A stretch of DNA of 20,573 nucleotides, from NCBI GenBank assembly GCA_030446525.1, contig JAUJNC010000145.1:1-20573 (forward strand), written 5' to 3'. Made by a program: the position numbers and the translations under genes. Source of the stretch: Armatimonadaceae bacterium. GTDB lineage: Bacteria > Armatimonadota > Armatimonadia > Armatimonadales > Armatimonadaceae. Of this stretch, positions 3,038 through 20,508 are shown piece after piece (the first letter of the stretch is position 1; each line of letters begins with the position of its first letter). Below the pieces are notes generated by a model. The model saw only the letters and a list, made by a program, of their open reading frames with translations, searched no databases and was not told the DNA's origin.

Positions 3038-4392
3038 ATGCTGACTCCAGGTCACGCCATCGCTGGAGCAGATCGACCAATGGCGTACACCGCCGCCGGC
3101 GGGTCATCCTCGTCGATGCGCTGAAGCCGGAAGACCATCTGCGCGAGCAGGTAGCGGTCCTGGTCGACGCGGGCTCCGCCACCGATGAAGCGTTCCTGGT
3201 GGCGGTGAAGCGCATGGGCGACCTCGACGCCTCTACCGGGAGTTCGCGCGCGAGCACTCGGACCGCCTCTGGAAGCAGGCTCGTGGTGTCCCCTCCGACA
3301 CCGGGGAGCCGCAGGCCGCGGCATGAACGGACGCCATCGTCGCATTCTGTGTGGCGGCGGCGGCGGCCGTGGACATCAAGGTGCCGGCACTCTTCGGCAT
3401 TCCGTTGGACCAAGACGCCGGGTTCTACGCCCGGAATCTGAGTCTCTTCGTTCTGCCCCTGCTGACCGGCTATTTCGTCTGGAAACGGCGGCTCGAGCCC
3501 GGCACCATCCGCTGGCTGGCGGTGGCGTTCATCGCGGCGGCAGTATTCGCCAACGCCTATGCGTTCGCGCGGGGCGGCAACACCGAGGCGCTCACGGCGC
3601 TGCACCTGCCGATCGCGCTCTGGCTGGTGGTGGGCATCGCGTACGCCGGCGTGCGGTGGGGCCAGGTGGGCGGCCACGCCGGACTTCATTCGATTCTCCG
3701 GGCGAGCTGTTCATCTACTACGTGCTGATCGCCCTCGGCGGCGGCGTGCTCACGGCGTTCATGGCGATGATCTTCCAGTCCATCGGGATCGACGTCGAGC
3801 CCTTCTTCGAGTCGTGGCTGCTGCCGTGCCCGGAGCGGCCTACAAGGGCCGTCGTGATCGCCTCCGCAACGAACTGGAGGCCAAGCAAGCGTGATCGAGA
3901 ACATGGCGCCCGTGTTGACGCGCACTTCACGCCCCTGTTCGCCGCCGTGCTGGTCACGTTCCGCAAGGGCCCTGCTGTGGACCGGACGCGGAGTCGACAT
4001 CGAGCAGGACGTGCTCATCGCCTTCGACCTGCTCCTGGTGGTGGTCCTGGGCCTGCTGCTCTATTCCGTCTCCGCCCGGGACCCCCGGTCGCCCCGGCCT
4101 CCTTCGATGTGGTGCAGGTCGTGTTGGTGGTCAGTGCGCTATTGGCCGACGCGGTAGCGCTGTGGGCCATCGCCGCGCGCATCACCGAGTTCGGATTCAC
4201 CCCGAACCGCGTGGCGCCCTGGGTGAGAACGTGATCCTCCTGGTCAATCTGGCTGGTCCGCCGTGCTCTACATCCGCTGGAGAGGGCGCGGATCGTTCGC
4301 GGGCCTCGAACGGTGGCAGACGGATTACCTGCCGGTCTACGCCGTGTGGGCGGCGATTGATCGTCTTTCCGCTGGTGTTCGGGTACATCTGA
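3038..4392 (+). pseudogene. Permease-prefix-domain membrane protein of a PadR cassette (multiply frameshifted)
   Basis: The ATG at 3038 (MLTPGHAIAG) is 2 nt after the presumed PadR stop. Alternating frames give one coherent protein. It has an N-terminal permease-prefix segment (DHLREQVAVLVDAGSATDEA, FLVAVKRMGDLDA, then YREFAREHSDRLW after a shift). About ten membrane helices follow, for example NLSLFVLPLLTGYFVWKRRL, IRWLAVAFIAAAVFANAYAF, ALHLPIALWLVVGIAYAG, FIYYVLIALGGGVLTAFMAM, VLIAFDLLLVVVLGLLLYSV and ADAVALWAIAARI. It ends IVFPLVFGYI at 4392. In related genomes this prefix precedes MacB-like ABC permeases or stands in DUF-type membrane proteins beside PadR; here it is the latter, about 440 residues, with no ATPase. 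Roughly eight indels break it. Function unknown; a membrane component repressed by the neighbouring PadR is the likeliest reading. Confidence 0.65.
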
Positions 4393-4467
4393 CCGGGTGC
4401 CGCCAGAGCCGGCCCGTTCGCAGCATGGGCTTCCACAGCCACCTCTAATTGCGCTTTGAAAAGACAA

Positions 4468-4496
4468 ACTCGGGAACTCGTTTTCCCGAGTGAGGA
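4468..4496 (+). promoter_or_regulatory. Stem-loop abutting a Shine-Dalgarno sequence
   Basis: A perfect 9-bp inverted repeat (ACTCGGGAA at 4468-4476, TTCCCGAGT at 4483-4491, 6-nt loop) ends exactly where the ribosome-binding site GAGGA (4492-4496) begins, 5 nt before the ATG at 4502. It could act as an mRNA stabiliser or a translational control element, or be the terminator stem of the preceding gene (no T tract follows). The strong RBS supports the 4502 start. Confidence 0.6.
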
Positions 4497-4501
4497 AATA
4501 A

Positions 4502-6159
4502 ATGAAAAACGCCCTCGTATCGTTCGTGGTCACCGCCGTGCTTCTCGGCACGCCCGCGTACGCGCAGGACAAGACCAGTGAGATCGACAAGATCTTCAGG
4601 ATTTGGGTCACGCCGGTCACGCCCGGGGGCGTGGTCGCCGTCTCGCAGCACGGAAAGCTGGTCGTGAACCCGCGCCTACGGCTCGGCCGACCTCCCGAGC
4701 GCGACGTTCCGATCAGCCCAAGCACGGTCTTCGATGTCGGATCGCTGAGGAAGCAGTTCGTCGCCGCGGCGGTCCTCCTGCTCGTCGAAGAGGGGCGCCT
4801 TTCTCTCTCTGACGACATCCATAAGCACTTCCCGGAACTCCCCGATTACGGCCATAAGATCACGCTGGACCATCTGCTCACCCATACCTCCGGTATCCGC
4901 GACTGGACCGGGCTCCGGCCACTGGCGGGGAAATGCCGATGTAGTGCCCCTGATCCTGCGTCGAAGCGCGGCCTCAACTTCGCGCCCGGCGAGGAATGGT
5001 CCTATTCCGTCGGCTACGTGCTGCTGACGGATCTCGTCGCGCGCACGAGCAGGATGTCGTTTCCCGATTTCACGCGCAAGCGCCTGTTCGAGCCGCTCGG
5101 GATGAAGACGACCACGTCCCCCGAGATCTGCGGGACGTCATCAAGAACCGCACTCGGTTACGAGAAGGAGGGCAAGCAGCTGGCGGGTGAAATGTATGTC
5201 GGCAACGAGCGCGGCAGCGTCGGCGGCGCCATCCTCAGCACAGCAGCCAACCTGCGTGATCTGGAACGACGCGCTGACGAGCGGACGGCTGGGGCGTTCG
5301 TCACCAGCTTCAGGAACCGGCAAGGCTGAACAACGGCAGGAAGCTCAGGTACGCCCGCGGCCTGATGGTGGATACCCGCGGCGTCAGGTGGTATCGCATT
5401 CCGCAGCGGCGCGGCCAGGTACGAAGAGGTCATGGCTGGGTCGCCTTCTGGAGCGGCCTTCCATCGCCATCCTGTGCAATGCGGACGTAACGTCCGCGTC
5501 GGCGCGCTCGCGCGCGCGTCGCCGACCAGTTCCTGCCCGCCGAGACGGCTGCGCCCGGGGCGCCAGCCGCAGCCGCCAGGGCGCCGCCGTGACGGGACTC
5601 GACATGACCAGCGGGGCCGGACTCTTCTTCAAGCGAGCGCACCGGCGAGCCGCTGCGCTGATCGTCAACGACGGGCTGGGCATCGACGGCGGAGGCCCGC
5701 TCGTGCCGGTGACCACGGACCGGTTCCATCAAGCGGCGAATCTCCAGACCTTCAGGTCACAGGACCCGAGTTCGAACTGCGCGCGCTTCCTGTCCCAGGA
5801 CCAGTTCGGCAGGAAATCCATGGAAGACAAAACGACACGGTATCGCCGCGCCCGAAGCCTTACTCGCCCACCGCGGCCGACCTGCAGGCCTTTGCGGGCC
5901 GATACGAAAGCGGTGAGATCAGGTCCGTCTTCCAGATGGTGCCCGGAAAGGACGGCCTGGTGATGCGCTTCGAGCTTTCGCCGGACAAGGCTCTGGAATT
6001 CAGGCCGGTCGATCGCGACGCCTTTCAAGCCAGGCAGGATGATGGTGCGCTTCCATCGGGACAAGGCCGGAAAGGTCGTGGCCTTCGACTGCAACAATCC
6101 GGTGGTCCGCAACGCATCAAGTTCACTGGCTGGGCGGCCGCACCGAATATCGCCGTTAG
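4502..6159 (+). pseudogene. Secreted beta-lactamase-fold serine hydrolase (class C/PBP-like), frameshifted
   Basis: The start is ATG 4502, with RBS GAGGA. Residues 1-21 form a signal peptide with an AYA cleavage site. The active-site SxxK is present as S81-L-R-K84 in FDVGSLRKQFVAAAVLLLVE, followed by LTHTSGIRDW. The second motif Y-x-N is damaged: WSYSVGYVLL has Tyr168 but no Asn. The frame is first lost around 4650-4690, again after about 4910, and repeatedly from 5270. Downstream, other frames still read LNNGRKLRYARGLMV, AAVTGLDMTSGAGLFF, LQAFAGRYESGEIRSVFQMV, PGKDGLVMRFE and finally GRKVVAFD-like text to a TAG at 6157. The C-terminal part resembles the beta-sandwich appended to many bacterial serine hydrolases. 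The substrate cannot be told (beta-lactam, D-Ala peptide or ester). Expected length is about 550 residues. Its 3' end is repeated at 6931-7117. Confidence 0.75.
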
Positions 6160-6250
6160 CGCCAGAGGAAGGTTGAGCAGCGGGCGCGACCAAACGGGAT
6201 CAGGGCAGGAGAGGCCTAGAAGACCAGCGCGGTGCCGCACTAGCACCCAA
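6067..6250 (+). repeat. Direct repeat copy A: 3' end of serine hydrolase plus flank
   Basis: About 184 bp that recur at 6931-7117 with scattered substitutions and small indels. The shared part starts at CCGGAAAGGTCGTGGCCTTC, covers the last ~28 codons of the hydrolase and its TAG (6157-6159), and continues about 90 bp past the stop (including GGAGAGGCCTAGAAGACCAG) to CACCCAA. Copy A carries indels that break the reading frame. Confidence 0.85.
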
Positions 6251-6386
6251 GGATGTAGGAGCGGACGGACGGGTGGAGAGCTGAAGGTACTGCGCCGCGA
6301 TTCGGCGAAACGCTCGGAAGCCTGGCGCTTCAAATGCGAACCAATACACGGGCCGAAGGGGCCGGGAAGTAGATTCATGCCGACTG

Positions 6387-6930: not shown

Positions 6931-7117
6931 CCGGAAAGGTCGTGGCCTTCGACTACAGCAATCCGGTGGTCCGCAACATCAAGTTCACGCGGCTGAGCGA
7001 CCGCACCAGTCGCCGTTAGCGCCAGAGGGAAGGAAGGTTGAGCAGCGGCGCGACCGGCGGGGATCCAGGGCAGGAGAGGCCTAGAAGACCAGCGCGGTGC
7101 AGCACACTGGCACCCAA
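6931..7117 (+). repeat. Direct repeat copy B: orphan 3' end of a serine hydrolase
   Basis: Second copy of the 6067-6250 repeat. Here the frame is intact for 28 codons (GKVVAFDYSNPVVRNIKFTR, then LSDRTSRR and TAG at 7017-7019), so copy B shows what the damaged C-terminus of the 4502-6159 gene should read. No other hydrolase sequence precedes it; the preceding 180 bp show nothing recognisable. It is either the scar of a lost paralogue or a duplication created by recombination. Confidence 0.85.
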
Positions 7118-8618: not shown

Positions 8619-10805
8619 TTACTGACTTTTGTTACCGCTTGGGGAGGGCGGAATCGGGCGCGCGGGAGGTCGTCGCCCTCGTCCTCGGGCTCGGGGGCGG
8701 CCGTGGTGGCGGCCACGGCGCTCACCGGAGCACCGGTCGCGGTTTCCGCCGCCCGGGCGCTCCGCGGTCGCGGTTTCCGCCGCCCGGGCCGCGGGCCGCG
8801 GGTGCGCTCGCGCGGGCGGCCCGGTTCAGGGTTGGCGGTCGAACGGCGGTCGCCGCGCGCGGTCGTTGACGCGGTCGCCGCCGGTGACGCGGACCCGCCG
8901 CCGCGTTCTCGTCGGGACGAGACGGCGCCAGGTCCCCCCCGGTCTCCGAACCGACCACCTTGCCTCGTACTCCTCGCCGGCCTGGACCACGACGGTCATC
9001 GATTCGATGCGGCGCTTCGCCCCCTTCGCCGTCGACCGACGCGCGGTCCTGCTCGATGTCGATCTTGGCGCCCGTGTCGGCGGTGATCTTTTGATGGTCT
9101 TGCCGCCCGGGCCGATGACCGTGCCGATCTGTTCGGGGTCGATGTGGATCGTGATGATGCGCGGCGCGTTCGCGCGCGGGGCAGGAATGGCTTCGTTGAT
9201 CTTGTCGAGGATGAACAGCCGGGCCTCGCGCGCCTGCTCGAACGCCTGGACGAAGACGGGTCTGGGGATGCCCTGGATCTTGGTGTCGAGCTGCAGGGCG
9301 GTGATGCCCTCGGCCGTGCCGGCCACCTTGAAGTCCATGTCGCCGGAGAAGTCTTCCATGCCCTGGATGTCGGTGAGCACGGCGTACTGATCACCCTCGG
9401 CGATCAGGCCCATGGCGATGCCGGCGACCGGGGCCTTGATGGGCACGCCGGCGTCGAGCAGCGCCAGCGTCGAGCCGCAGGTGGCGCCCATCGAGGTCGA
9501 CCCGTTGGACTCGAGCACCTCGCTCTGCAGCAGCATCGTGTAGGGGAAGGTGTCGGGCTGGGGCACCACGCTGCCGAGCGCCCGCTCGGCCCGGCGCCGT
9601 GGCCGATCTCGCGCCGCCCCGCGCCGCTGCAGCCGCGCGCCTCGCCGACCGAATAGGGCGGGAAGTTGTAGAAGTGCATGTAGCGCTTCTCGCCGTCCTC
9701 CTCGAGCGTGTCCACGGTCTGCGCGTCGTCGCCGGAGCCGAGGGTGAGCGTCGTCAGGACCTGGGTCTGGCCGCGCGTGAACAGGCCGGAGCCGTGGACG
9801 CGCGGGAGAAGGCCCCGACCTCGCAGGAGATCGGGCGGATGTCCCTGGCGCCCCGGCCGTCGGGGCGCTTGCCCTCGGCCAGGATCAGGTCGCGGGAGGC
9901 ATCGCTGACCACCTTGTCGGCGGCCTCTTTTATGTCGGCCTCGTTTTCCGGGTACGCCGGCAGGAGCTTGGCGGCCACGTCGTTGATGAGCAGGTCGAGC
10001 CCCGCCTCGCGGGCCGCCTTGTCCGGGTCCTGGAGGCCGCGGCGCAGGTCGGCGGCGAAGTCGGTGCGGATCTTTTGCAGGATCTCGGCGTTGTAGTCGT
10101 GCAGCGGCACCTCGCGCTTGGGCTTGCCGGCGACCCGGGCGAGGCTCCTGCTGGGACGCGCACTGCTGCTTGATGACCTCGTGCGCCCGGTCGAAGGCCT
10201 CGAGCATCTGCGCCTCGGAGACCTCGCGCGCGCCCGCCTCGACCATCAGGATCGCCTTTTTCGGTCCCGGCGACCACGAGGTCGAGCGCCGACTCGGCGA
10301 CCTGGGCCTGGGTGGGGTTGATCACGTACGCGCCGTCGATCAGGCCCACCCGGACCGCCCCGATGGGGCCGGCGAAGGGGATGTCGGAGACGGTGAGCGC
10401 CGCCGAGGCGCCGAGCACGGCGTACACGTCGGGCAGGTTGTCCATCTCGGCCGACAGCGGCATGGCGATCACCTGGACTTCGTTGCGCATCCCCTTGGGG
10501 AACAGCGGGCGCAGCGGCCGGTCGATCAGGCGGGACGTCAGGATCGCCTTTTCGCCGGGGCGGCCGCCGCGCTTGACGAAGCCGCCGGGGATCTTGCCGA
10601 CGGCGTACTTGCGCTCTTCGTAGTCGCAGGTGAGGGGGAAGAAGTCCAGCCCGGAGCGTACCTCGGCGTTCATGGTGGCCGTGGCCAGGATGATGGTGTC
10701 GCCGCTGCGGACCAGGACCGACCCGTTGGCCTGCTTGGCGAGGCGGCCGGTCTCGAGGGAAACGACCCGCCCGTCGGGCAGCGTCATCTCAACGGTATGT
10801 GGCAT
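8619..10805 (-). CDS. pnp: Polyribonucleotide nucleotidyltransferase (PNPase), multiply frameshifted
   Basis: PNPase degrades RNA 3' to 5' by phosphorolysis as a trimer and is a degradosome component. The start is ATG at 10805 ([20 protein letters not shown]); upstream GAGA is only a weak RBS. First RNase PH domain: [50 protein letters not shown]. Linker helices: [20 protein letters not shown] and [14 protein letters not shown]. Second RNase PH domain: [87 protein letters not shown] domain: [13 protein letters not shown] then [12 protein letters not shown]. An Arg/Gly-rich tail ([23 protein letters not shown]) ends SPSGNKSQ at a TAA (8619-8621). At least six frame changes occur. The S1 domain is not recognisable beyond its first strand. 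Since pnp is conserved in nearly all such genomes, sequence error is more likely than loss. Follows rpsO, as in most bacteria. Confidence 0.9.
8734..8789 (-). repeat. Tandem repeat in the PNPase Arg/Gly-rich tail
   Basis: A 25-bp unit (CGGTCGCGGTTTCCGCCGCC then CGGGC on the plus strand) occurs at 8734-8758 and exactly again at 8765-8789, a period of 31 bp. On the coding strand each unit spells PGGGNRDR, but in different frames. A 30-bp period would keep them in one frame, so one base is probably surplus between them. RG-rich tails are common on PNPases and bind RNA. Confidence 0.75.
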
Positions 10806-18650: not shown

Positions 18651-19706
18651 ATGAGCAGACCGGACGGGCAGGAGCGCCAGCGGCTAGTGGAGCGCCTCTT
18701 TCCCCAGGGCGTGCCGGCCCTCTGGTGCCCGTTGTTGACCCATTACGGCGCTTCCGGGGCGATCGACCGGGACCGGATGACGGCCCATCTCCGGCATCTG
18801 GCGCCCTGGGTGAAGGCCTACCTGATCCCCGGCTCCACCGGCGACGGGTGGGAGATGAGCGACGAGGAGGCGCGGCAGGTCCTGGACTGGGCCCTCGATC
18901 AGGCGGCCTGGCAGGGCGTGCAGATCCTCGTCGGCGTGCTCAAGACCGACGCCGGCGAGGCCCGGCGCAGCGTGCGGGACACGATGGCGTGGCTACAAAC
19001 CCGCACCGGCGCCCCCGATGTCGAGGCCAGCCTGCGCGCCGCGCGGGTTTGCGGTTTCGCGGTGTGTCCCCCGCAGGGCGAGCATCGGTCGCAGGAAGAG
19101 ATCAGCCGGTCGCTCGCGTCGATCCTGGAGCTGGGCGCGCCGACAGCCCTGTACCAGCTGCCACAGATCACCCGCAACGAGATGGGCCCCGAGCTGGTGT
19201 CGGATCTGGCGGCGCGTTTCCCCAACTTCTTCCTGTTTAAAGACTCCAGCGGCACGGACCGCGTGGCGGCGGCGGGCCGGGCGCCCGAAGGCGTGTTCCG
19301 GGTCCGCGGGGCGGAAGGGGATTACGCCCGCTGGCTGGCTCCTGCCGGCGCGTACTACGGCCTTTTGCTGAGCACGGCCAACTGCTTCGCGCGACAGTTC
19401 CATGCCCTGGTCCAGGATCTGGCCGGCGGGCGGCTCGCCGAAGCCCAGGCCCTGTCCGCGCGTCTTTCCGGCGTCGTCGGCGCGGTGTTCGATCTGGTGG
19501 CCGGCCTCCCCGACGGCAACCCGTTCGCCAACGCCAACAAGGCCATGGACCATTTCTTCGCCCATGGCCCCGGCGCCGAAAACATTCCGCCGCCGCGGCT
19601 ACGTTCGGGTCGCTCGCTGCCCGTCGAGGTTCTGCGGGCCGCGGGCGAGGCGCTCGTCCGCCACGGCCTGATGCCGGCGCGCGGGTACCTGGACTGGCAG
19701 GGTTAA
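18651..19706 (+). CDS. Dihydrodipicolinate synthase/N-acetylneuraminate lyase family protein
   Basis: ATG 18651 follows an AGGAG RBS (9-nt spacing) 23 nt after the kinase stop, so the two are probably co-transcribed. The 351-residue class I aldolase-type TIM barrel has the family's pyruvate-binding GST (61-63, in IPGSTGDGWEMSDEE), the catalytic tyrosine at 168 (ALYQLPQ) and the Schiff-base lysine at 197 (LFKDSSG). These residues support a pyruvate-dependent aldolase or lyase reaction; the substrate is not shown. Candidates include N-acetylneuraminate, 2-keto-3-deoxy sugar acids or dihydrodipicolinate. It is about 50 residues longer than the common 290-300, with an extra N-terminal segment and an insertion around 118-130. 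No frameshifts. The last 54 bp recur at 20417-20470. Confidence 0.85.
   Translation: MSRPDGQERQRLVERLFPQGVPALWCPLLTHYGASGAIDRDRMTAHLRHLAPWVKAYLIPGSTGDGWEMSDEEARQVLDWALDQAAWQGVQILVGVLKTDAGEARRSVRDTMAWLQTRTGAPDVEASLRAARVCGFAVCPPQGEHRSQEEISRSLASILELGAPTALYQLPQITRNEMGPELVSDLAARFPNFFLFKDSSGTDRVAAAGRAPEGVFRVRGAEGDYARWLAPAGAYYGLLLSTANCFARQFHALVQDLAGGRLAEAQALSARLSGVVGAVFDLVAGLPDGNPFANANKAMDHFFAHGPGAENIPPPRLRSGRSLPVEVLRAAGEALVRHGLMPARGYLDWQG
19644..19697 (+). repeat. 54-bp direct repeat, copy 1 (3' end of lyase-family gene)
   Basis: Coding for GEALVRHGLMPARGYLDW. It recurs at 20417-20470 with three substitutions. The two copies enclose the coiled-coil gene pair. Confidence 0.9.
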
Positions 19707-19791
19707 GGCGCGAGCGGACGGAGGTCTGCGCCTGAGGCACAGGAGCGCGTCCGTCCGGTCGAGCTAGAGCCGGAGGAGGGGTGCTACGAGC

Positions 19792-19820
19792 TTGGTGGCT
19801 CACTTTGTTCGTGGTAAAAT
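19792..19820 (+). promoter_or_regulatory. Promoter for the coiled-coil gene pair
   Basis: TTGGTG (19792-19797), a 17-bp spacer and TAAAAT (19815-19820), about 20 nt before the GTG start at 19841. The -35 is weak (three of six), the -10 good. Confidence 0.5.
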
Positions 19821-19840
19821 CCAGGTGGAGGGAGCCGATC

Positions 19841-20068
19841 GTGGATACTGCTTTGACAACCGACATGCCCGCCCACGGCGACGCGGCGGAAATGGAATCT
19901 GCCATCGCGCGCGTCATCGAGCAAATAAAGGAGATTCGCGAACAGATGAAGGCTGACGACGTCGCGATCGCGCGGTTCAAGGCGGAGAACGCCGTATTGA
20001 AGGCTGAAACGCAAACACTTCGTGACGAAACACGCGCCATCCTCGCCAGCCTGCGGAACGCCGCGTAG
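19841..20068 (+). CDS. Small coiled-coil protein (75 aa)
   Basis: The GTG at 19841 is preferred over upstream starts because GGAGGGAG stands 6 nt before it. The product begins VDTALTTDMPAHGDAAEMES and continues with heptad-like AIARVIEQIKEIREQMKADD, VAIARFKAENAVLKAETQTL and RDETRAILASLRNAA. It is an almost continuous amphipathic helix without signal peptide or membrane segment, likely oligomerising. No family is recognised. Base composition is less GC-rich than the neighbouring enzyme gene. It lies 6 nt upstream of a second coiled-coil gene and shares its promoter. Confidence 0.6.
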   Translation: MDTALTTDMPAHGDAAEMESAIARVIEQIKEIREQMKADDVAIARFKAENAVLKAETQTLRDETRAILASLRNAA

Positions 20069-20074
20069 CTACCC

Positions 20075-20383
20075 ATGCTCAAGCAGATCATCGAGCTGAC
20101 GACGCAGTTCCTCTCGCTCGCGAAGGACGTTCAGTAGAACAAGGCCGATACCAAGGACGTGGAGCAGGAGGTCAAAGACCTGCGGCGCGATTTCAACGAC
20201 CTCAGGCGCGAGGTGCGCGATCTGGCGACGGCAGTGCAACGCTTAGCCTATGAGATTCACCGCGTGAGTGAAAACGAAACAAGCGAGCGCAAACTCCTAG
20301 CACTCCAGTTGGAGAACACGCTTCTGAAGTTTGAGCGTCGCCTACCTTCGGGCAGGCCAAATTTGGAAGACGAGAAAGATTGA
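20075..20383 (+). CDS. Small coiled-coil protein interrupted by an in-frame amber codon
   Basis: ATG 20075 reads MLKQIIELTTQFLSLAKDVQ, then TAG (20135-20137), then in the same frame NKADTKDVEQEVKDLRRDFN, DLRREVRDLATAVQRLAYEI, HRVSENETSERKLLALQLEN, TLLKFERRLPSGRPNLEDEK and a stop at 20381-20383 (102 codons plus the amber). The N-terminal helix, the heptads and the ERKLLALQLENTLLKFERRLP tail resemble a family of small uncharacterised coiled-coil proteins that I recall with the N-terminal part attached, so the TAG interrupts one protein. The TAG is one substitution from CAG (Gln). An internal start at GTG 20159 lacks a good RBS. Confidence 0.6.
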
Positions 20384-20416
20384 GCCGGACCTTCCGGCCC
20401 CACCCGGCGCTGCACA

Positions 20417-20470
20417 GGCGAGGCGCTCGCCCGCCACGGCCTGATGCCGGCGCGCGGGTACCTGGGCTGA
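20417..20470 (+). repeat. 54-bp direct repeat, copy 2 (orphan tail of lyase-family gene)
   Basis: Encodes GEALARHGLMPARGYLG followed by TGA. It matches 19644-19697 at 51 of 54 positions. Preceding bases (20384-20416) do not extend the similarity. Confidence 0.9.
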
Positions 20471-20478
20471 CGCGGTTC

Positions 20479-20508
20479 TTGACGCCCTTCCGACCCCCAT
20501 GCTATAAT
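20479..20508 (+). promoter_or_regulatory. Promoter for a gene beyond the window
   Basis: TTGACG (20479-20484), an 18-bp spacer and TATAAT (20503-20508), a near-consensus pair. The predicted transcript starts near 20515. An ATG at 20571-20573 ends the window, but no coding sequence can be assessed. Confidence 0.7.

Follow-up and report, generated by a model that had tools for sequence, protein, structure and literature searches.

Integrons hold arrays of small cassettes, toxin-antitoxin pairs among them, which are separated by related sequences, the attC sites. Phages and islands that insert into the 3′ ends of protein-coding genes bring a replacement end, and the old end is found beyond the element. 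The minimal mobile elements of Neisseria rely for their homology on a pair of conserved genes that neighbour each other. The closest known kind to the arrangement that we describe here is the long target duplications of restriction-modification systems. According to the available parts of PMC3031569 and PMC3874152, which describe the work of Nobusato 2000 and Furuta 2010 on the insertion of restriction-modification systems, these insert with long, variable target duplications of the order of 100 bp. The available part of a review on toxin-antitoxin systems (PMC2654758) cites this insertion work and states that addiction and apparent mobility are features common to restriction-modification and toxin-antitoxin systems.

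The arrangement described here, in the following called a gene-tail bracket, consists of a small cassette that is enclosed by two copies of the 3′ end of a gene. Like the restriction-modification units, as far as the available parts of these papers describe them, gene-tail brackets are small selfish units for which no mobility gene of their own is noted and whose flanking direct repeats are long and variable, of the order of 100 bp. They differ from the units described there in that the repeat is the 3′ end of a gene, that the two copies often differ synonymously, that arrays form, and that the cargo consists of toxin-antitoxin pairs and a coiled-coil pair. The arrays resemble those of integrons in their small cassettes, including toxin-antitoxin pairs, and in their related separators; however, the separator in the array at the methionine synthase gene (metH) is the end of a protein-coding housekeeping gene and not attC, and no integron integrase was seen nearby by reading. 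As for phages and islands in gene 3′ ends, there would be an incoming replacement end with the old end beyond the cassette, whereas the unit here measures about 0.5–1.2 kb, has no integrase and uses many targets with no fixed core by reading. The exchange of cassettes by homologous recombination of flanking sequence would be shared with the Neisseria elements, but here the tail of one gene lies on both sides. Judged by titles and the starts of abstracts, we found no description in the literature of toxin-antitoxin pairs wrapped in gene tails.

The window, i.e. the whole stretch of DNA that was analysed, comprises 20,573 nucleotides from an Armatimonadaceae bacterium (contig JAUJNC010000145.1). 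The original prediction held that the last 54 bp of a lyase-family gene recur beyond a pair of coiled-coil genes (Table 1). This repeat is confirmed: positions 19644–19697 and 20417–20470 are identical at 51/54 sites, and when the 1.2 kb preceding the pair were aligned locally with the sequence that follows it, the score was 51, compared to a mean of 13.9 and a maximum of 25 in 500 shuffles in blocks of three. Given the residues that precede the two stop codons, both copies look like possible gene ends; among the 120 lyase relatives listed, which include the window protein, the C-terminus is GYLE in 61 and GYLD in seven. The lyase gene has no close relative in the 291 Armatimonadota genomes searched, of which two contain a relative at 49% identity, and a search of E. 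coli genomes gave no match. The lower GC content that had been claimed for the coiled-coil genes was recovered as well, with 59.9% between the tails (19707–20416) vs 68.5% in the window and 71.0% in the lyase gene.

Table 1. Positions of the target gene, the two tail copies and the enclosed reading frames in the window
Feature	Position	Strand	Details
Target gene, dihydrodipicolinate synthase family	18651..19706	+	PF00701, E 5.1e-12; frame closes at 19706
Upstream tail copy	19644..19704	+	the gene's own 3′ end, ...GYLDWQG then stop; 92% identity over 61 bp (ungapped extension)
First coiled-coil ORF	19841..20068	+	GTG start chosen; earlier in-frame GTG at 19781
Second coiled-coil ORF	20075..20383	+	in-frame TAG at 20135-20137; 63 relatives at E up to 1e-3
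Downstream tail copy	20417..20477	+	direct repeat; ...GYLG then stop; 33 bp after the second ORF
Sigma-70-like promoter match	20479-20508	+	TTGACG-18-TATAAT; 11/12 positions; shuffles mean 0.2

Other parts of the prediction fared less well. Both ORFs of the supposed gene pair are present, but the second is broken by an in-frame stop codon where its relatives read on, and the window copy is thus interrupted. A promoter of their own had been assigned to the coiled-coil genes; none was flagged before the first ORF, and the sole sigma-70-like match lies directly after the second tail and may be the promoter of either the native downstream gene or another cassette. A second duplication in the window, at 6067/6931, had been regarded as a parallel, with the tail of a hydrolase gene enclosing a small gene. 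The direct repeat itself is real (6067–6250 vs 6931–7117, 85% identity), but it extends about 100 bp beyond the stop codon of the hydrolase gene, and by reading, remnants that resemble transposases seem to be present in the stretch. We therefore ruled it out as an instance of the same architecture. Elsewhere in the window, a polynucleotide-phosphorylase-like gene (8826–10805, minus strand) seems, by reading of the ORF list, to be split over three overlapping frames, which points to errors in the assembly or to decay of this contig.

We next consider the coiled-coil pair itself. A contig scan for the second ORF gave 17 loci from Armatimonadota, Acidobacteriota, Verrucomicrobiota and one record labelled Acetofilamentum. 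Matches were present in 14/14 source genomes, in 13/291 genomes of the Armatimonadota search, in 6/396 genomes of the Acidobacteriota search and in 18/119 genomes within one Acidobacteriota family; the copy numbers from the large genome-group searches, in which part of the first-look candidates was scored, are lower bounds. The spread of the second protein is patchy and it occurs in multiple copies. A small ORF precedes it in 70/73 loci by a loose rule on size and position, and 15/73 match a stricter motif pattern. No curated family in Pfam, PADLOC or NCBIfam fits the protein, and 36 of its relatives gave only weak coiled-coil matches in these collections, none of them to an established family of toxins or antitoxins. 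Plasmid and phage collections, queried with one family member, gave no match; a viral collection contained one weak relative (31% identity). By its packaging alone, the coiled-coil pair would be an addiction-type module.

The prediction had further suggested that other coiled-coil pairs might be flanked by gene-end repeats, and this is what we observed. Three of the first 17 loci had clear flanking repeats at once (L001, L005 and L016), each from a different gene. Whole-genome searches gave 75 loci (L018–L092), of which 72 were examined after L039, L040 and L066 had been dropped as second pieces of neighbouring hits. Since split hits of one cassette were kept (e.g. L050/L065 and L049/L057) and several whole-genome hits without a locus stayed outside, 72 is not a count of independent cassettes. 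In 16/72 loci, the best repeat beat the best of eight shuffles by at least 11. After reading, 12 of these 16 were accepted as gene-tail brackets; together with L054, whose repeat comprises 25 bp including the stop, this results in 13/72 accepted brackets, which involve 12 or more different target genes by reading. The weakest among them are L034, L092 and L054. Three strong repeats were rejected, as they represent a paralogue of the first ORF (L058), paralogous flanking genes (L068) or a repeat family (L059), and L053 was set aside. An acceptable second tail was missing in 59/72 loci; these hits may have decayed or may have arrived by another route.

The accepted brackets show the layout that was proposed for the window, with a cassette at the 3′ end of a gene whose end is restored. 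A full second gene beyond the cassette, which would have indicated a decayed tandem duplicate, occurs in none of them; homology ends at the tail. The duplicated stretch ranges from 25 to about 240 bp, and the brackets were recovered from assemblies that are independent of each other, in part on contigs longer than 300 kb. L020 and L086 have the gene on the opposite strand and its intact copy downstream; thus, the orientation is not fixed. Across ten brackets of all kinds, Pfam identified the targets as a class II aminoacyl-tRNA synthetase (L115), a beta-CASP RNase (L077), a nucleoside phosphorylase (L016), the glycine dehydrogenase gcvPA (L023), a class V aminotransferase (L219), a succinyl-CoA ligase type protein (L217), an amidohydrolase (L206), an isocitrate/isopropylmalate dehydrogenase (L118), DnaB (L252) and methionine synthase (L113); uvrB (L020) and fabF (L124) were named by reading. 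The downstream tail often starts close to the cassette: the gap after the last cassette stop is 0 bp in L206, L203 and at the L113 protease, 5 bp in L224, 10 bp in L219 and L124, 18 bp in the second L016 bracket and 33 bp in the window. Unlike these tight starts, the gap at the L016 phosphorylase is about 170 bp. At L032 (1910–2164, the same place as L115), an extra small ORF separates the coiled-coil pair from the second aminoacyl-tRNA synthetase tail, which suggests that composite cassettes may exist.

Gene-tail brackets are not restricted to the coiled-coil pair. A direct-repeat scan of 926 kb, which includes overlapping neighbour stretches, and a scan with a tail rule detected brackets around other cargo. 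By Pfam, this cargo includes HicA (L217 and L219) and a HicB-like antitoxin (L219), ParD with ParE (L203), ParE (L113), MazE-like with PIN (L206), RHH with PemK/MazF (L124), UPF0175 (L002), FRG (L118), a C39 peptidase (L224) and an aspartic-protease match (L016, with a sub-threshold one in L113). Among the partners, the second ORF of L217 and L002 and the first ORF of L113 and L224 had no Pfam match, and no clear cargo was recognised in the brackets L204 and L207. On the L113 contig, five partial metH 3′ ends are found with different cassettes between successive copies: two small ORFs on the minus strand, a ParE pair, an aspartic protease together with a small ORF, and the coiled-coil pair. 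The two minus-strand ORFs lie between the first two tail copies (L113 76–1484). Furthermore, L029 contains three copies of one tail.

To compare the brackets with controls, we used two measures. A raw repeat score of at least 28 was reached by 9/70 coiled-coil hits, 5/28 ParE loci and 3/29 HicA loci, and at random by 23/600 positions in carrier genomes, 8/200 in the control and 1/200 in E. coli. This score was too unspecific and was thus replaced by the tail rule, which was then checked with gene-end-matched positions. The strict form of this rule accepts 8/70 coiled-coil hits, 5/28 ParE loci and 3/29 HicA loci, where the ParE and HicA acceptances L241, L249, L273, L277 and L260 (metH array) rest on short ORFs of doubtful reality. 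At random positions it accepts 10/1200 in carriers, some of which are the same toxin-antitoxin brackets, and 0/400 each in the control genome G696 and in E. coli K-12; at gene-end-matched positions it accepts 9/620, 2/235 and 0/135, respectively. The rate at coiled-coil hits exceeds that at random carrier positions (8/70 vs 10/1200, p 1.6e-6). Tail-rule brackets of at least 60 bits and 85% identity number five in G309, four in G013 and two in the Armatimonadota set, and none were found in G010, G696 or E. coli K-12; when weak ones are counted, the numbers are six, six, eight, three, four and one, respectively.

Relatives with a single tail, which the prediction had proposed to look for, were found at two other targets. 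The gcvPA target is present in 107/118 genomes, and the best 29 relatives lack a second tail (scores up to 15). The L077 target was matched in 90/119 genomes; 29 relatives end at the matching C-terminus, and their second-copy scores are at most borderline (25 in L141, 24 in L143, lower in the rest). Some targets recur, as a coiled-coil hit directly follows the phosphorylase in eight genomes and gcvPA in three. Only G013 has the second tail (1/8 and 1/3 genomes), so vertical inheritance probably explains part of this recurrence. At the phosphorylase, a single tail and a single cassette are present in G741, whereas G013 has a tail, a cassette, a second tail and a second coiled-coil hit; the two genomes are identical at 591/659 nt of the gene body and at 845/998 nt of the downstream DNA.

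The differences between the two tails of a bracket give information on their descent. In the frame of the gene, 27 copy pairs differ by 108 synonymous and 115 non-synonymous codon changes (48% synonymous), in a count where L226 repeats L074, where the metH rows are not independent, and which omits L034, L124, one L118 bracket, one L016 bracket and the first metH pair. Simulated drift gives 19% synonymous changes, so that the observed excess is significant (p 1.6e-22), also without the metH rows (78 vs 107, p 1.2e-12); the other frames of the copy pairs give 72 synonymous vs 380 non-synonymous changes. Frames were set wrongly by rule for L086 and probably for L020, L092 and L054, which lowered the synonymous count; in its own frame, L086 has six synonymous to four non-synonymous changes. 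As a drifting target duplication would ignore codons, the synonymous excess suggests that many tail pairs descend from two functional genes. For instance, metH copies differ by synonymous to non-synonymous changes of 15 to 4, 8 to 1 and 7 to 3, and in the gcvPA tails a 13-codon stretch, GHDNDFLVCVTET, differs at nine codons, all synonymously. In G013, the upstream gcvPA tail is nearest to L301 and L295, whereas the downstream one is nearest to L296 and L304. The window pair has no synonymous and four non-synonymous differences, mostly at the edge, which are too few to discriminate; young brackets do not discriminate between one and two source genes either.

Taken together, we lean towards the view that the coiled-coil pair belongs to the cargo of a class of small cassettes, which often are type II toxin-antitoxin pairs and which would move from one bacterium to another along with the 3′ tail of a housekeeping gene; this view comes from sequence comparison. 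The incoming DNA would consist of a tail and a cassette, either as a circle or as a linear piece with tail arms on both sides. Homologous recombination of the host would join the incoming tail with the recipient's own version, and the product would be the recipient gene body with the incoming tail end, followed by the cassette and the remaining tail, so that the gene stays intact. As all the homology needed would lie in the tail of one gene, the cassette could also enter genomes in which other genes follow downstream, and an addictive cargo would protect it from loss via recombination between its repeats. The recurrence of this wrapping around some toxin-antitoxin pairs of environmental bacteria suggests a way in which small selfish genes could travel without an enzyme of their own. 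Several observations speak against carriage with a tail: 59/72 hits have no acceptable second tail; the identity of the L023 tails is only 66%, less than expected for homologous recombination of the ordinary kind; the near-identical core of L077 measures 96 bp and is bordered by ends that differ, which is unlike one crossover between diverged tails; at the phosphorylase and gcvPA sites, the second tail is confined to G013; and the window pair has no synonymous excess. ComEC is present in 7/8 carriers and also in the control genome; uptake is thus possible but not specific to carriers.

The main competitor is a long, variable target duplication, in which some step copies 25–250 bp while inserting, insertions near a gene end survive as the gene is rebuilt, and the copies then drift. 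We consider this unlikely. Its length range and cargo type resemble the restriction-modification systems as described in the available parts of PMC3031569 and PMC3874152, young brackets such as L074 have nearly identical tails (2/55 differ), and the near-identical core of L077 looks like a duplicated target. However, a drifting copy would lose its protein reading, which does not agree with the synonymous excess, strongest in metH and gcvPA, nor with the gcvPA tails of one locus being nearest to different relatives. The prediction had instead compared the locus to the usual site-specific integration of islands, with a cassette possibly moved in trans. It was right that the window contains no integrase (by reading), but the usual form of such integration is not supported, since targets differ between cassettes, the repeat can measure anything between 25 and about 240 bp and synonymous differences are found between the tails; this points to homology carried by the cassette and not to one att core. 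A recombinase acting in trans that uses gene tails as attachment sites, where the element brings the replacement gene end, is improbable in our estimation. It would agree with the replaced 3′ ends and with the tandem arrays at one tail (metH). Isocitrate/isopropylmalate dehydrogenase genes, to which the L118 target belongs, are a target class known for phages. Furthermore, tyrosine integrases are present in 8/8 carrier genomes searched, but in these eight genomes no bracket has one on its contig at a distance of less than 10 kb, several contigs being short, and the nearest is a fragment about 10.5 kb from the bracket (G027). In addition, one cassette uses many unrelated targets that share no common core by reading.

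Two further explanations carry even less weight. A resident unit of tail and cassette could have been amplified in tandem by unequal crossing-over with subsequent loss of one cassette. The G013 phosphorylase locus, in which the second tail precedes a second coiled-coil hit, has the shape of a tandem duplication, and L058 has a duplicated first ORF with no gene tail; yet the metH array holds different cassettes between its tails, and the tails differ by synonymous changes, which makes this scenario very unlikely. That the repeats arose by chance, as paralogue remnants or as assembly artefacts is hardly credible for the brackets, even though 8/200 random control positions reach the raw score of 28, 3/16 strong repeats turned out to be paralogues or repeat families, and the window has signs of broken frames. 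Against this stand the score of the window repeat, which is twice the shuffle maximum, the recurrence in independent assemblies, in part on long contigs, and the codon-level structure of the tail differences.

Returning to cassettes that travel with a gene tail, we tentatively propose a form of integrase-free mobility in which the 3′ tail of a housekeeping gene would serve as the attachment site. Addiction modules, including a so far unrecognised coiled-coil pair, would bring along a gene tail as homology that moves with them, form arrays like those of integrons at preferred tails and, in doing so, exchange core-gene ends between species. This bears on the spread of toxin-antitoxin pairs and their establishment in chromosomes where no mobility genes are apparent, and mosaic 3′ ends of core genes could be accounted for in this way. 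Brackets with tails of different descent would contain a readable history of the insertion, including donor lineage, crossover point and relative age. Furthermore, brackets offer a route to new addiction modules by packaging alone.

Lastly, we describe two loci in which the bracket takes another form. In L217, a 261-bp gene tail is repeated at 97% identity (4267–4527 and 5998–6258) around a 567-codon ORF and not around a small pair; this ORF ends in the tail itself and appears as a larger relative of the bracket pattern. In L118 (16706–17029), the end of a cassette ORF runs in frame into the downstream dehydrogenase-like tail, which may lend this ORF a new C-terminus.
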